Source: a virus
IMG/VR virus record: IMGVR_UViG_3300021375_000060
Location: 1 to 42,226 of that record
Strand: one strand, 5' to 3'
DNA: 42,226 bases
The notes below the pieces were generated by a model that was not told where the DNA came from, made no database searches, and was given only the letters and a program-made list of their open reading frames with translations. A program made the translations under genes and the position numbers. This document shows positions 9,517 through 15,969 of this stretch, one piece after another (the first letter of the stretch is position 1; every line of letters starts with the position of its first letter).

Positions 9517-9524
9517 TATAAATA
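9517..9524 (+). promoter_or_regulatory. T4-type late promoter
   Basis: A perfect TATAAATA box lies 51 bases before the GTG of the 1320-aa fibre-like gene. In T4 this box is recognised by the gp55 sigma factor with gp33 and the gp45 clamp, and transcription starts about 6 bases downstream, here near 9530. It follows directly after a terminator, as expected for a new late unit. Confidence 0.75.
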
Positions 9525-9574: not shown

Positions 9575-12500
9575 GTGTCAGCATCTAGTATACCACTAAA
9601 AATTAAGAATGCTAATGGTGACCTACAGGAAATTACACCTTCAGAAGAGATGTATCTCGCTGTAAAGGTGGGTGAAGCACTAGCAGAGGCCTCTGCTGGT
9701 GATATCGGAGACCTCAGTTTAACTGATGGTGTAAACATTGGTTCTTTTGTAGATACGTACTACAATGAACCAACGGGTACTCACCCGTTGTCAAACATCA
9801 CAGGCACTACAGTGACCACTACCTTGAAACAGGTTGGTGGTTCTGCAAGTGAAACTGATCCGAATTTCGCCCGTCCTGTAGGTTATTACGAAGTTGAACC
9901 AAATCCAGGCTTCTACGAAATGGTAGACGCAGACTTGGACAACTTAACAAATCGTGCACTAAAAAATATGGAGACATTAGGTCTTCAAGGTGCATTCGAA
10001 CTTTCTACCACCTCTCCGGGCAGTGATTGGACAAAACATATTGATAATGTTTTTTCTAATACTCTTGGTGACGGTACAACAACAACTTATCATATATGGA
10101 AAAGAACTGCTCTGTCTACACCACCAGCTGGTGTTACAACTGTTCGTCCGGTAGCGACCGACTATGATGGAACTTCATCATTCAATGGTCTGAAAGAAAT
10201 GTCAGACGCGGAGATCAAATATACTCTTGGTCAACGTGCAAAATCCCTCAGAGCAACAGCAGGCGAAATTGGTTCTTATCAGTTACGTTCGTCTGCACAG
10301 GGCGCACCAACCTCCGTTGGTACTTGGGCCGCACGTGGTTCTGCCTCAAACACTCAACCTTCTATTGTTACCGTAGACTATACTCGTACTCGCGCTTCTG
10401 CGTATGCACGTACTAGAGTATCAGCATACACTCGTGATCGAGTTTCTTCATATACCACTAATCGTGTTACAGACTTCTCTCGTACATTTGTTGGCAATTA
10501 TGCTGGAGTTTATTCTCGCGACTTCGCTGGTAATTACTCTCGTAACTTCGCTGGTGAGTACACAAGAACTCGACCTTCTTCTTTTTCCGGAACATATTCG
10601 CGTACTCGTAACTCTACTTACTCACGTACTAGACTAACCGGATTTACCGCGTCATACACTGGTGTTTATAGTCGTGAACGTATATCTGCTTATACGCGTA
10701 ATAACATTACAGAATTTGCCGGTAACTTCGCTGGTAACTATGCAAGAACTTTCGTGGGTAACTATGCAAGATCTTTCGTGGGTAACTACGCACGTGGATT
10801 CGCGGGCAACTTCGTAGGTAACTACGCTCGTGTTTCTACTCGGGCTTCTGCTAGAACTCGTTACTCAGCCTATGCCCGCACATCAACTCGCACTCGTTAC
10901 TCTGCATATGCACGTGACCGTGTAACAAACTTTGCTGGTAACTTCATCGGAAACTATTCTCGAGCGTTTACTGGTGACTTCGCTGGTAACTATACAAGAA
11001 CTTACACAGGTAATTACGCGGGCGACTTTGTTGGTAACTATGCAACTACCTTTACTGGTGACTTCGTAGGTAACTACTCACGCGGATTTGCCGGAGATTA
11101 TACTGGTAACTATGTTGGTGAGTATGCAAGAACCCGTATAACCAACTATGCTGGTAACTTTGTTGGTAACTATGCAACTACTTTTACTGGTGACTTTGTA
11201 GGTAACTACGCACGTGGATATGTAGGCAACTATGCCGGAGATTTCGTCGGTGATTATGCAAGAACCTCAACCCGAACTTCCACTCGCACCTTAAACTATA
11301 CTCGTACATTGTACTACGTTGGTGACTTTGCAGGCAACTATGCTCGTAACTACTCTGCAAACTATGCTCGCACTGTGGCATATACTCGTGTTTTGTACTA
11401 TGCTGGTGACTTTGTAGGTAACTACGCACGTGCTCGTGCATTCAGTTACGTAGGTAACTACTCTCGTACTCGCGCACAAGGCGTTACATATACTGGTAAC
11501 TATGGTCGTACTCGTACTGGTACTTACGGTGGTACCTATACGCGAGCTCGCGCTGCCTCATATGTAGGCAACTATGGTCGTACTCGTGTAACAAACTATG
11601 CCGGGAACTTCGTGGGTGACTACTCACGTAACCGAGCTGCATCCTATGTTGGCGATTACTCCCGTAACCGAGTCGCAGCTGTAGCCTATACTCGCAGTAC
11701 GGGTTATGCTCGTACAGTAAATTACAGCAGAACATCGACTCGTGTCAGTTCTGGTACTGCTTCCTTTGTTGGTAATTATGCTGGTTATGGTCAAGACTTT
11801 CAATACACCGGCACTAACGGTAGCTACGCTTCATGGAAGTATGACTATGGTTACACCGGTGGTGTAACTCTTACCATCAGCTGGGCCGGTGCTGTTCGAT
11901 TTTCCCAATTCTATTCTAATACTGCGTCGGCCCCATTCGACTATGTTGATGTAGGCAACCCATACGGTAGCACAAGATATACTAAGGGGCCAGCTCAAGC
12001 ATCTGCTTCATATTTCTCTTACCACAGTGTTGCAGCGTCGGGTAATGCAAACTACCAATACTACACCAGAACTAGAATAGGTGCAGGGACTTCCTATACT
12101 GGTGACTTCGTAGGCAACTACGGTCGATCCACTACGTATTCTCGAACAGCCTCCTATAATAGAAATGTAACATATACTGGTAACTACGGTCGAACCCGTG
12201 CCGCAACATATACTGGTAACTATGGTCGTACTCGTGTAACAAACTATGCCGGGAACTTCGTGGGTGACTACTCACGTACTCGTGCGGCATCCTATACTGG
12301 TAACTATGCTCGTAACCGTGCATTCTCATATGTCGGGGACTACTCTCGCGCTCGTGCTGCAACACTGTACTATGTTGGTAACTACGCACGTACTCGCACT
12401 GGCTCTTATGAGGGTAACTACGCAAGAACTTCAACTAGAACTTCAACCAATACTGGTTACTACACACGTCAAGTTCTTTATACTGGTAACTATGCGACGG

Positions 12501-13537
12501 CGTACACTCGTAATCGTGTTCAGACCTTTACTAATACTGGTAACTATACACGCGTTGGTTCATACGCTGGTGACTTTGTCGGCAACTACACAAGAACTTC
12601 AACTCGTACTTCTACAAGAACTCGTTACTCTGCATATGCTCGTACTCGTATCACTAACTATGTTGGTGACTTTACTCGTGACCGTGTAACAGACTTTGCA
12701 GGCAACTTTGTCGGCAACTACACAAGAACTTCAACCATAGTTTCTACTCGCGTCCGGTACTCTGCATATGCTCGTACTCGTATCACTAACTATGTTGGTG
12801 ACTTTACTCGCAATTCAACTCGCGATTCTGTTCGCAACCGTGTTTCAGCCTATGCTCGTACCCGCATTACAGATTACTCTGGTGTTTTCACAAGAGACCG
12901 TATTACGGACTTTGCTGGTAACTTCGTAGGCAACTATGCTCGCGGATATGCTGGTGACTACGTTGGTAATTATGTTCGTGGATTTGGTGGGACATACACT
13001 GGTGACTTTACTAGTGTATATACTCGTGAGTCTACCCGTGCTCGTTACTCCGCATATGTTCAAACTCGTGTGTCTTCATACGTAAACAATCGTGTATCCA
13101 CATATTCACGTGACCGTGTAACTAACTTTGCTGGCGACTTTGTAGGCAACTACTCGCGTACATTCGCGGGAGAATTCGCTGGAACATATACCCGTGACTT
13201 CGTAGGCGACTTCGTAGGTAACTACTCACGTGGATTTGTTGGTGAGTACGCTGGTGCTTATTCAAGAGACTTCTCAGGTAATTACTCTAGAGCTCGTGTA
13301 TCAGCTTACGCAAGAATACGCAACTCTACATACACTGGTACTTATTCTCGTGACCGTGTGTCTGCTTACGCTGGTGATTTCGTAGGTAACTACTCTCGTA
13401 CATTTGGTGGTAACTACAATACCGATTTCACCGGAAACTTCTCTAGGGCATTTGCTGGTAACTATGCTGGTGAAACCATTAGTGGTGACCTAGTAGATAC
13501 ACCAGAAACTTATACTTTATACGTAAGGGTTGCCTAA
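9575..13537 (+). CDS. Giant tetrapeptide-repeat fibre-like virion protein
   Basis: The protein has 1320 residues and starts with GTG after a purine-rich AGAGAGA. Residues 1-265 are a non-repetitive head. From about 268 to 726 and from about 836 to 1300 nearly every residue falls into a four-residue repeat: aromatic or Arg, then Ala/Val/Ser/Thr, then Gly or Arg, then Asn/Asp/Thr/Ala (units such as FVGN, YARD, FAGN, YSRT, RVSA). Exceptions are mostly two-residue units, so an even spacing is kept, which suggests extended beta structure. Residues about 730-835 form a different insert rich in Tyr, Trp and Gly. A short unique tail follows. There is no catalytic motif. I know of similar FAGN/VGNY stretches in marine myophage structural proteins but no named fold. 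A fibre shaft role is inferred from context. Confidence 0.7.
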   Translation: MSASSIPLKIKNANGDLQEITPSEEMYLAVKVGEALAEASAGDIGDLSLTDGVNIGSFVDTYYNEPTGTHPLSNITGTTVTTTLKQVGGSASETDPNFARPVGYYEVEPNPGFYEMVDADLDNLTNRALKNMETLGLQGAFELSTTSPGSDWTKHIDNVFSNTLGDGTTTTYHIWKRTALSTPPAGVTTVRPVATDYDGTSSFNGLKEMSDAEIKYTLGQRAKSLRATAGEIGSYQLRSSAQGAPTSVGTWAARGSASNTQPSIVTVDYTRTRASAYARTRVSAYTRDRVSSYTTNRVTDFSRTFVGNYAGVYSRDFAGNYSRNFAGEYTRTRPSSFSGTYSRTRNSTYSRTRLTGFTASYTGVYSRERISAYTRNNITEFAGNFAGNYARTFVGNYARSFVGNYARGFAGNFVGNYARVSTRASARTRYSAYARTSTRTRYSAYARDRVTNFAGNFIGNYSRAFTGDFAGNYTRTYTGNYAGDFVGNYATTFTGDFVGNYSRGFAGDYTGNYVGEYARTRITNYAGNFVGNYATTFTGDFVGNYARGYVGNYAGDFVGDYARTSTRTSTRTLNYTRTLYYVGDFAGNYARNYSANYARTVAYTRVLYYAGDFVGNYARARAFSYVGNYSRTRAQGVTYTGNYGRTRTGTYGGTYTRARAASYVGNYGRTRVTNYAGNFVGDYSRNRAASYVGDYSRNRVAAVAYTRSTGYARTVNYSRTSTRVSSGTASFVGNYAGYGQDFQYTGTNGSYASWKYDYGYTGGVTLTISWAGAVRFSQFYSNTASAPFDYVDVGNPYGSTRYTKGPAQASASYFSYHSVAASGNANYQYYTRTRIGAGTSYTGDFVGNYGRSTTYSRTASYNRNVTYTGNYGRTRAATYTGNYGRTRVTNYAGNFVGDYSRTRAASYTGNYARNRAFSYVGDYSRARAATLYYVGNYARTRTGSYEGNYARTSTRTSTNTGYYTRQVLYTGNYATAYTRNRVQTFTNTGNYTRVGSYAGDFVGNYTRTSTRTSTRTRYSAYARTRITNYVGDFTRDRVTDFAGNFVGNYTRTSTIVSTRVRYSAYARTRITNYVGDFTRNSTRDSVRNRVSAYARTRITDYSGVFTRDRITDFAGNFVGNYARGYAGDYVGNYVRGFGGTYTGDFTSVYTRESTRARYSAYVQTRVSSYVNNRVSTYSRDRVTNFAGDFVGNYSRTFAGEFAGTYTRDFVGDFVGNYSRGFVGEYAGAYSRDFSGNYSRARVSAYARIRNSTYTGTYSRDRVSAYAGDFVGNYSRTFGGNYNTDFTGNFSRAFAGNYAGETISGDLVDTPETYTLYVRVA
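10375..13470 (+). repeat. Tetrapeptide-encoding repeat tract (12-bp periodicity)
   Basis: The coding sequence for the four-residue repeat runs for about 3 kb, interrupted at roughly 11760-12080. Most units differ in synonymous codons, but two long copies are identical at the DNA level: 61 bases at 11570-11630 and 12218-12278, and 53 bases at 12626-12678 and 12758-12810. This suggests both old divergence and recent copying within the gene. Confidence 0.85.
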
Positions 13538-13568
13538 TCGCCCTTACTGTGGTATAATAAGATATAAC

Positions 13569-13597
13569 GCGGGTCATTCACTTGACCCGCTTTATCT
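13569..13597 (+). terminator. Factor-independent terminator
   Basis: An eight-base-pair GC-rich stem, GCGGGTCA (13569-13576) with TGACCCGC (13583-13590), closes a six-base loop and is followed by TTTATCTT. It lies 31 bases after the stop of the tetrapeptide-repeat gene. Confidence 0.8.
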
Positions 13598-13645
13598 TAA
13601 CACTATATACATTATAATTTGAATTGAACTCTCTGGAGATATTTA

Positions 13646-14107
13646 ATGAGTCGTAAGCAATGGATGGATAATGCCTTCTGGGAAACAGAAGAAAAGAAAG
13701 AACTGAACTGTATCCTAGAACTTGAAGATGATGTTGGTCGTGTTACACGTCAACAAATGTTTTTACACCGTCATGATAAGGATGGTGGTGAGAACGAATT
13801 GTTTAATGAAGTGATTGATGCCTTAGGCGAAGATTCTATCGATAAAGAAACTACAGATAGAGTTGTTCGTAAGGAGGCACAAGCTGAAGAAGATAAACTA
13901 CGTGAAAATGAACACCAGAAAGCACGTAAACTTGAAAAGTTATTCAACTACAAGATTGAAGCATTTGAAGTAGAAGAAATCAAAAACTCTAAAAACCGAA
14001 AGTTAAAGGCAAAACTGCGTCGAGCAAAATCAAAGATTGAAGTAGATATGTGGTCAATCATGATTCTACAAGATCAACTTGAGGCCGAGAGCGATGGAAA
14101 AGAGTAA
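13646..14107 (+). CDS. Charged helical protein of unknown function
   Basis: I do not recognise this 153-residue protein. It is very rich in Glu, Lys, Asp and Arg, and from about residue 70 to the end it is predicted by eye to be continuous helix, probably coiled coil (e.g. NRKLKAKLRRAKSKIEVDM). A GGAG ribosome binding site lies about 9 bases before the ATG. It starts a three-gene unit in which each gene overlaps the next, followed by a glycosyltransferase and an oxygenase-like gene. A chaperone or adaptor role for the adjacent fibre or for the modifying enzymes is conceivable but not shown. No perfect late-promoter box precedes it; TATAATTT at 13613-13620 is the nearest candidate. Confidence 0.6.
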   Translation: MSRKQWMDNAFWETEEKKELNCILELEDDVGRVTRQQMFLHRHDKDGGENELFNEVIDALGEDSIDKETTDRVVRKEAQAEEDKLRENEHQKARKLEKLFNYKIEAFEVEEIKNSKNRKLKAKLRRAKSKIEVDMWSIMILQDQLEAESDGKE

Positions 14108-14831
14108 AGGGTTTATAATTGTCGCTTCTAAGAAGCATAACTTTTATTTGTATGCAATCAATCTTGCGGAGTCTCTTAGAGACTACTACGAACCAGAAGA
14201 TGAATGTAAAATCTGTCTAGTGACAGAAGAAAGATTCCTAGACGACCGTGGTCGTGATGTCGCAGATGATATTATCTTATGTGACGACCATTATCGAGCT
14301 AAGTTATATGGTATGGCAAAATCACCATACGATATAACGATGTACATTGATGCTGACATGGAAGTCGAGCATGAAGACATTACCAAAGTGTGGGATGAGA
14401 TGAAAGACCACGACGTGGTATTCACTGCCCTCACTGACGACCGCGACTATATTTACGCGGAACGTGATTTTGATACTCCGGAAGGTGTTTCTAAATTTAC
14501 ATTATGTGGTGCTGTTTGTCTATATGATATGTCCAAACCAATTGTTCGGGAGTTCATGGATGACTGGTGGGACTTAACGTTCAGACAGATGAACGATTCT
14601 TGGTGGCCAAAAGGTTATGCAGATTCCCTGAAATCGTGGGATCAATTCTCCCTTTGGTGGCTGACTGAGAAAGAAGAAAAATATAAGGATCTCAAGGTTG
14701 GTATCTTCGATGACGACTTGAGGTGGAACTATTATAACGCTCTTAATTGGGCGATCACAAAACCTGAAACAGGGCCAGTGATTATACGTCACTTCTCTGC
14801 GGGTTTAAATAAGGATACTCCAATCGTATGA
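14094..14831 (+). CDS. Glycosyltransferase-like protein (GT-A fold)
   Basis: The protein has 245 residues from the ATG at 14094; an in-frame TTG at 14079 is less likely. The N-terminus has a Rossmann-like strand and helix (GFIIVASKKHNFYLYAINL), and TMYIDADMEVEH supplies a DxD motif at residues 86-88, the typical metal and nucleotide-sugar binding site. The segments FTLCGAVCLYDM and SWDQFSLWWL resemble acceptor and catalytic regions of GT8-like enzymes. Family members use nucleotide-sugars to glycosylate proteins or glycans. The gene overlaps its upstream neighbour by 14 bases and the downstream one by 4 bases (ATGA). Glycosylation of a fibre protein is inferred from context. Confidence 0.65.
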   Translation: MEKSKGFIIVASKKHNFYLYAINLAESLRDYYEPEDECKICLVTEERFLDDRGRDVADDIILCDDHYRAKLYGMAKSPYDITMYIDADMEVEHEDITKVWDEMKDHDVVFTALTDDRDYIYAERDFDTPEGVSKFTLCGAVCLYDMSKPIVREFMDDWWDLTFRQMNDSWWPKGYADSLKSWDQFSLWWLTEKEEKYKDLKVGIFDDDLRWNYYNALNWAITKPETGPVIIRHFSAGLNKDTPIV

Positions 14832-15535
14832 CACAGGTAAACGACCAATATCTCAAGCACGTCGAGGTTAATAACCCTGAGCTACTTGAGGTTCTAAACG
14901 AATACTCCAAGTTACATACCATGAAAGGGTTTGAGAAAAATTGTCACTTGAATTCTGCTCAACATAAACGTCAACGTAACTACTACGTCGGCCCAGTCCA
15001 TATGGACGAAATTGTTGCTCAGGGTGTAAGTCACGAAGGTTTCCCAGACGAACTCGTTGGTTATAACTTCAAACTTTCTGATAAAACACACATGATGTTT
15101 GAGAAGGACGCAGATCCTATCTTTAAACGTGATATGACTCACCATCTTCGCGACTTGAACGACAAGATGATGAACTTCCTATCCGTCAAACATAATGCAC
15201 TTGCAGCAGTATATCCGCCAGGGGGATTCATCTCTTGGCACAACAATGCTAACGCTCCTGGCTTCAATCTAATCTTCTCATACTCAGAAGATGGTTCTGG
15301 TTACTTCGACTACATCCATCCTGAGACTAAAGAAGTCATCCGTTGTCAAGACGAAGCGGGTAAGTGGACATGCAAAGCAGCATACTTCGGTCACTATGGT
15401 GAAGAGGGTAAGGTTATGTACCATGCCGCTTCTACAGAAGATTGGCGTTGCACAGTATCTTACGTTTTCGACTGGTCAGAAGCATCAGACGACTTCCGTG
15501 AGATGGTTCTAGCAGACATTTCTTCTGCTGAATAA
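14828..15535 (+). CDS. 2-oxoglutarate/Fe(II) oxygenase-like protein with atypical HxN motif
   Basis: The protein has 235 residues. Its C-terminal half resembles the double-stranded beta-helix of prolyl or aspartyl hydroxylase-type oxygenases: an AAVYPPGGFISWHNN entry with H138 and N140, then a distal H199 (KVMYHAAS) and R207 (DWRCTVSYVF) in the places of the second iron-binding His and the 2-oxoglutarate-binding Arg. The usual HxD/E is replaced by HxN, so catalysis may differ or be lost. Such enzymes hydroxylate protein side chains. It overlaps the glycosyltransferase start-to-stop (ATGA), so the two may act on the same virion substrate; that is inference. Other cupin-like functions are possible. 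Confidence 0.5.
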   Translation: MTQVNDQYLKHVEVNNPELLEVLNEYSKLHTMKGFEKNCHLNSAQHKRQRNYYVGPVHMDEIVAQGVSHEGFPDELVGYNFKLSDKTHMMFEKDADPIFKRDMTHHLRDLNDKMMNFLSVKHNALAAVYPPGGFISWHNNANAPGFNLIFSYSEDGSGYFDYIHPETKEVIRCQDEAGKWTCKAAYFGHYGEEGKVMYHAASTEDWRCTVSYVFDWSEASDDFREMVLADISSAE

Positions 15536-15546
15536 AATAGTTCATA

Positions 15547-15609
15547 CCTCAAACCTTAAACGGTTATAAATAGAGAGAGACATTATATAAACTGTTTAAG
15601 GTTTTGAGG
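15547..15609 (+). promoter_or_regulatory. Inverted repeat enclosing a late promoter and masking a ribosome binding site
   Basis: CCTCAAACCTTAAAC (15547-15561) pairs with GTTTAAGGTTTTGAGG (15594-15609), with one bulged base and three more pairs after a mismatch. The right arm contains the GAGG that precedes the ATG at 15613. The late promoter lies in the loop, so late transcripts should start near 15578 and lack the left arm, leaving the ribosome binding site free. Read-through transcripts should fold and be poorly translated. T4 genes e, soc and 49 are known to use this arrangement. Confidence 0.75.
15565..15572 (+). promoter_or_regulatory. T4-type late promoter
   Basis: A perfect TATAAATA box lies 41 bases before the ATG at 15613, inside the loop of the inverted repeat at 15547-15609. 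The predicted start is near 15578. Confidence 0.8.
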
Positions 15610-15612
15610 AAT

Positions 15613-15969
15613 ATGGCAACTTACGAAGATTTCACAATTGATCAAGGTTCTGATTTTGCTCTGCAAATAGAATTAGTAGATCCAGACCAATCAACAAAAG
15701 ACCTAACAGGGTTTTCGGTTGCTGCTAAGATGAAGAAAACCTTCAGAAGCGATGCCGACAGTACTGTTGACTTTACGGCCATTGTCGCAGAACCTTCGAC
15801 CAATGGCGTCGTTACTATATCCCTAACTAACATTCAAACCGATTTACTATCTACTCGCGGTAGGTATGTCTATGATGTCGAGATAAGTTATGTCGACACA
15901 GAAGGCAATACTATCATAGAGCGAGTATTAGAAGGTAAAATAAAAGTCAATCCTTCGGTAACAAGGTAA
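15613..15969 (+). CDS. Ig-like/beta-sandwich virion structural protein
   Basis: The protein has 118 residues. The ATG at 15613 is preferred over the TTG at 15604 because TGAGGA at 15605-15610 would then serve as its ribosome binding site. The sequence (DFTIDQGSDFALQIEL, then DLTGFSVAAKMKK, then GRYVYDVEI and a C-terminal ERVLEGKIKVNPSVTR) matches a small beta-sandwich family found among T4-like marine phage structural genes, similar in pattern to the N-terminal domain of BppU-type baseplate proteins. It probably forms part of a fibre or baseplate attachment unit. Translation is likely controlled by the hairpin that overlaps its ribosome binding site. Confidence 0.6.
   Translation: MATYEDFTIDQGSDFALQIELVDPDQSTKDLTGFSVAAKMKKTFRSDADSTVDFTAIVAEPSTNGVVTISLTNIQTDLLSTRGRYVYDVEISYVDTEGNTIIERVLEGKIKVNPSVTR

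Follow-up and report, generated by a model that had tools for sequence, protein, structure and literature searches.

The locus around the hairpin

The stretch of DNA that we analysed, referred to here as the window (42,226 nt), is from a marine T4-like virus. Its nearest isolate is phage C48C1 (Kyanoviridae; OQ984149), which also carries the hairpin and has the identical gene order: a gene for a fibre-like repeat protein, a 153-aa gene, a probable glycosyltransferase gene, an oxygenase gene, the hairpin that concerns us here and a tail-fibre gene. The features of this region are as follows.

13530..13558, + strand: sigma70 promoter-like sequence ahead of the upstream unit: TTGCCT-17-TATAAT, its -10 preceded by TG
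13569..13590, + strand: GC-rich stem-loop resembling a terminator, just downstream of the sigma70-type site and behind the late fibre-like gene (which ends at 13537)
13646..14107, + strand: first gene of the upstream unit, 153 aa, no assigned function
14079..14831, + strand: likely glycosyltransferase, weak GT2 profile match, conserved DxD
14828..15535, + strand: protein with a 2-oxoglutarate/Fe(II) oxygenase fold (predicted model), last of the upstream unit
15547..15565, + strand: 5' (left) hairpin arm, ahead of the inferred +1 of the late RNA
15565..15572, + strand: T4-type late promoter TATAAATA, inferred +1 at about 15578
15590..15609, + strand: 3' (right) hairpin arm, with the ribosome site inside it
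15598..15601, + strand: AAGG, conserved stem sequence and candidate Shine-Dalgarno, separated from the ATG by 11 nt
15606..15609, + strand: GAGG, lower-stem sequence and the Shine-Dalgarno of the first-pass annotation, separated from the ATG by 3 nt
15613..15969, + strand: regulated gene, LtfC-like tail-fibre assembly protein, 118 aa (PF23926, E 3e-6)

The regulated gene had been described as coding for a structural protein. Matches of its product to PF23926 and to phrog_1084/phrog_3304 (L-shaped tail-fibre assembly families), with a weak similarity to p132 of 7qg9, correct this to an LtfC-like tail-fibre assembly gene. The upstream genes had been called a glycosyltransferase/oxygenase unit. 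The oxygenase part of that name holds at the level of predicted fold, as the model (pLDDT 84) matches AlkB, PHD2 and prolyl-4-hydroxylase (Foldseek E ~1e-5). The glycosyltransferase part comes down to a weak profile match (GT2, E 0.001, below the cut-off), and the structure model of this protein was too poor for confirmation; ATG 14094 is its likelier start. The fibre-like gene (9575-13537) codes for a 1320-aa protein of short repeats, such as DFVGNY/TRTR, and its C48C1 counterpart is 3347 aa long.

Cyanomyoviruses possess gp55 and NATAAATA late promoters (PMC2984593). In the window TATAAATA occurs 10 times, against 2.0 expected, and every copy is on the + strand. One late promoter, at 9517, lies 5' of the fibre-like gene. 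The copy at 15565 lies 48 nt 5' of the ATG at 15613, and T4 late promoter geometry would place its +1 near 15578.

Pairing of the arms and access to the ribosome site

The first-pass annotation had noted a 15-pair inverted repeat with one bulge around this late promoter. The repeat is real and its position exact. The core arms (15551-15565 and 15590-15604, 15 nt each) form 14 Watson-Crick pairs and one G.U pair (15562.15593), and past a one-base bulge at 15605 four further pairs (15547-15550 with 15606-15609) bring the total to 19. RNA from 15540-15630 folds at -25.7 kcal/mol, compared with -11.3 +/- 2.6 for 200 dinucleotide shuffles, none of which folded as well (z -5.5). The repeat does enclose the promoter, as annotated. 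However, the promoter had been placed in the loop; the first T of TATAAATA is part of the stem, so the promoter occupies the hairpin's top and is not wholly a loop element. A search of the whole window against Rfam gave no match.

We found that the right arm contains two possible ribosome sites. The GAGG that had been proposed as the ribosome site is indeed inside this arm, but it is unlikely to be the sole or main one. AAGG is better spaced from the ATG. Among close relatives GAGG changes to GATG, GAAG or TAGG whereas A(A/G)GG is retained, and for this reason the inner AAGG is probably the main ribosome site of the 15613 gene.

Folding both transcripts, as the first-pass annotation had suggested, gave the predicted outcome: the ribosome site is closed in read-through RNA and open in late RNA. 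We computed how much energy it takes to open positions -18 to -4 in read-through RNA and in RNA from the inferred late start. For the 15613 gene this cost is 21.7 kcal/mol in read-through RNA and 4.3 in late RNA, which, given the inferred +1, is predicted to lack the hairpin and leave the site accessible. Over 50 hairpin loci the medians are 15.2 and 5.0; for hairpin-less loci they are 5.2 and 3.5. The late motif stands 42-49 nt ahead of the ATG in the 50 hairpin loci. Across 165 late-promoter genes of 11 related genomes, the median difference between read-through and late RNA is just 0.8, and the top-ranked differences belong to the tail-fibre gene (in several genomes), an 89-aa gene and HNH endonuclease genes. 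A genome-wide count of start-spanning pairs proved too permissive, and occlusion, z-score and opening energy were used instead.

Rebuilt arms in related phages

We examined the hairpin in relatives, initially in 80 viral contigs with homologues and afterwards in an enlarged set. Counting folds with z <= -2 and >= 10 spanning pairs, a hairpin precedes the tail-fibre gene in 44 of 60 distinct loci with an adjoining oxygenase gene. Under a stricter definition (z < -3 plus an occluded ribosome site) it is present at 31/51 distinct loci with the oxygenase upstream and at 0/12 with another upstream gene.

Loci with another upstream gene carry a different conserved element in the late leader, GCAGGGgc-loop-GTCCGACAAAGAAAT...ATTTCATGG, with the ribosome site in its second loop. 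It occurs at 4957-4984 of L041 and also in L045, L055, L063 and L076, with variants in L069, L070 and L073. Its stems seem to covary (GGGGC/GTCC to GGTGG/CCACC; GAAAT/ATTTC to GAACT/AGTTC), and it has no match in Rfam.

The arms themselves differ wholly among relatives, as in the pairs CCTTAAAC/GTTTAAGG, CCTTGAAC/GTTCAGGG, CCTAAGTG/CACTTAGG, CCTCAGATTG/CAATCTGAGG and CCAGTTTCC/GGAAACTGG. We compared them with an alignment-free arm-swap test, in which each left arm is paired with its own right arm and with those of other phages. Arms from 32 distinct loci paired at a mean of -22.4 kcal/mol with their own partner and -13.0 with a foreign one, and the observed sum was not reached in any of 20,000 permutations. 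The same test on hairpin-less control loci showed no effect (p 0.75). RNAalifold returned no common structure for a 16-sequence cross-clade alignment, because MAFFT cannot align rebuilt arms.

Pairing is also preserved within families. For the family to which the window belongs, standard pairs fill 94.3% of the pair cells; a one-column shift lowers this to at most 55%, and three sequences carry an A-U to G-C exchange. The CCAGTTTCC family has 88.7% standard pair cells and likewise collapses on a one-column slide. Changes on both sides of a pair are few within families (2 and 4 pairs) and the within-family shuffle controls are exceeded only modestly, so we place the main weight on the arm-swap between clades. 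The variation of the arms is thus compensated, as the switch annotated on first pass would require.

In the Mosig and Melnitz phages the homologous gene has a different genomic context and the hairpin was not clearly found there; the Melnitz fold is weak and ambiguous (z -2.3). A strong match at 75082 of Melnitz-1 was rejected, as with its T run it resembles an ordinary terminator. Syn9 and S-PM2 have few, weak candidates, located elsewhere in the genome.

A proposed early/late switch and its counterparts

The first-pass annotation had linked the hairpin to read-through from the upstream unit, behind which it saw no terminator. A terminator scan likewise detected no terminator-like site between the upstream stop at 15535 and the hairpin and ATG at 15613. 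The route for read-through would consist of a host-type promoter upstream and a boundary without a terminator, yet a terminator-like stem (13569-13590) follows right after that promoter and could limit early read-through. Among relatives, the upstream unit has a good sigma70-type site ahead of it at 41/44 hairpin loci and 5/16 hairpin-less loci (Fisher p 3e-6). A late-type motif occupies this place at none of the 44 hairpin loci and at 4 of the 16 others (p 0.004). Such an association is a prediction of a device against early read-through. It may also reflect shared ancestry, because hairpin state changes only about four times on the tree, where an independent-pairs test of the promoter link has no power. 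Three hairpin loci (L201, L236 and L178) lack a clear host-type promoter, and a promoter-like site occurs with no clear hairpin at L028, L034, L037, L040 and L078. The early timing of the unit is read from the promoter match.

Two further elements lie near this promoter. Stem-loop 13569-13590 (GCGGGTCA...TGACCCGC) recurs about 10 nt after the host-type promoter in one large clade, where its sequence varies and its pairing persists; it could terminate late RNA or, alternatively, protect early RNA at its 5' end. The motif CTATATAC (13603-13610) has a single exact copy in the window, and nearly every relative, whether it has a hairpin or not, carries a near variant ahead of its 153-aa gene. This motif is possibly an unrecognised promoter or leader element.

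Our analysis makes it very probable that the tail-fibre assembly gene is controlled by an early/late switch in translation of the T4 gene e/I-TevI type. Upstream RNA would probably begin at the host-type promoter (about 13530-13558) that precedes the 153-aa, glycosyltransferase and oxygenase genes, and would run past the oxygenase stop, where there is no terminator. This read-through RNA, carrying both arms, would fold, hiding the ribosome site and leaving the tail-fibre gene untranslated. Late in infection, the phage sigma factor would start RNA near 15578, inside the hairpin; this RNA would be without the 5' arm, the hairpin could not form and translation would follow. As only late RNA would escape the hairpin, the tail-fibre assembly protein should be made late only.

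We weighed this switch against other readings of the hairpin. It is improbable that the hairpin instead serves the upstream unit, either by capping and protecting its early mRNA at the 3' end or as a target for cleavage by a double-strand RNase, with the hiding of the ribosome site as a by-product. The hairpin does start 12 nt past the oxygenase stop codon and does tend to accompany the unit's own host-type promoter. Across hairpin loci, however, the distance from the upstream stop varies from 4 to 122 nt, as against 42-49 nt from promoter to ATG. The position of the hairpin is tied to the promoter and the ATG, not to the upstream stop codon. The ribosome site is always within the 3' arm, and identical geometry is found at unrelated genes (below), neither of which suits a role in the upstream unit.

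We consider it somewhat less probable again that the silenced read-through is late RNA from the 9517 promoter, with the hairpin separating two late operons. That promoter does precede the fibre-like gene, and all genes are on the + strand. This reading is opposed by the terminator-like stem after the fibre-like gene, and by the hairpin's association with a host-type promoter and never with a late-type motif at that place.

Slightly less probable still is a role of the dyad as DNA, either as the operator for a repressor of the late promoter or as a cruciform. The dyad straddles the promoter, and there is a precedent in I-TevI, which represses its own late promoter through an overlapping site (PMC2988022). 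If a DNA palindrome were selected, A.C mismatches, which read as G.U pairs on the opposite strand, should equal G.U pairs in frequency. We counted 47 G.U and 23 A.C at loci picked by a strand-symmetric score (p 0.006), and 29 and 13 in a stricter set (p 0.02). The sense strand also folds more stably than the antisense (p 0.0003). The G.U excess points to selection on the plus-strand RNA and not on a DNA palindrome, and the complete change of arm sequence between clades is unlike a protein site. Lastly, a chance palindrome or an intrinsic terminator is hardly credible: the arms are of low complexity and AT-rich, but the z-score is -5.5, 44 of 60 distinct relatives retain the hairpin with new sequences, and there is neither a GC-rich stem with a T run, nor a T run after either arm, nor a hit in the terminator scan.

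Building on the translational switch, we tentatively suggest, at somewhat less than even chances, that the hairpin is an evolvable insulator in marine T4-like phages. Where early cargo with a host promoter lies before a late structural gene, a hairpin would be built, or rebuilt, with fresh sequence around the late promoter; it would be dropped when the cargo is driven late or moved.

We scanned 11 related genomes for the same geometry. In four genomes (W01 80999, G005 980, G002 15252 on the - strand, G007 30658) the late promoter of the gene for the 89-aa protein is surrounded by a hairpin that hides the ribosome site. This protein has an N-terminal hydrophobic stretch and no family match. Two HNH endonuclease genes (G002 40318, - strand, and G007 6921) also have a late promoter within a ribosome-hiding hairpin, matching the pattern of the T4 and Aeh1 homing endonucleases.

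A small number of T4 and Aeh1 genes are known to have early/late translational switches. In T4 e, soc, 49 and I-TevI, a helix in the long early RNA hides the ribosome site, and late RNA starts inside the helix and so is without its 5' strand (PMC3014915, PMC2988022). For gene e, with which soc and 49 are classed (PMC3014915), the reduction is about 100-fold (PMC3014915, PMC2988022). Scanning T4 late promoters with our fold and occlusion measures placed gene e first and found I-TevII; it missed soc. A text search of the open literature, leaving subscription papers aside, gave no description of such a hairpin in cyanophages or their relatives. The marine lineage offers dozens of natural variants in which the arms are replaced and the pairing kept, a divergence far beyond that of the T4-type examples. 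This makes it testable how such switches originate when early cargo genes settle in a late structural cluster, and it flags genes whose early production these phages avoid.

The sequence-level features of the gene e class are present in the window: a T4-type late promoter near the gene and a helix spanning the RNA start and the ribosome site. As in T4 gene e, where long early RNA is untranslated and late RNA is free, late promoter sequence TATAAATA lies within the region giving the 5' arm, and the 3' arm covers the ribosome site and start (PMC3014915). Against -24 to -26 kcal/mol for the hairpins here, T4 gene e has a shorter and weaker stem (-13.3 kcal/mol, z -4.4), which guards a lysis gene rather than a tail-fibre assembly gene, and here the arms have been rebuilt with new sequence in many phages. 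I-TevI, I-TevII, SegB and MobE, whose genes are embedded in early or middle units, share the late promoter in a ribosome-hiding hairpin (PMC2988022), but they are mobile endonucleases, whereas the gene here is for structural assembly. Judged by its predicted fold, the window hairpin is an unusually strong addition to the T4 gene e-type switches.
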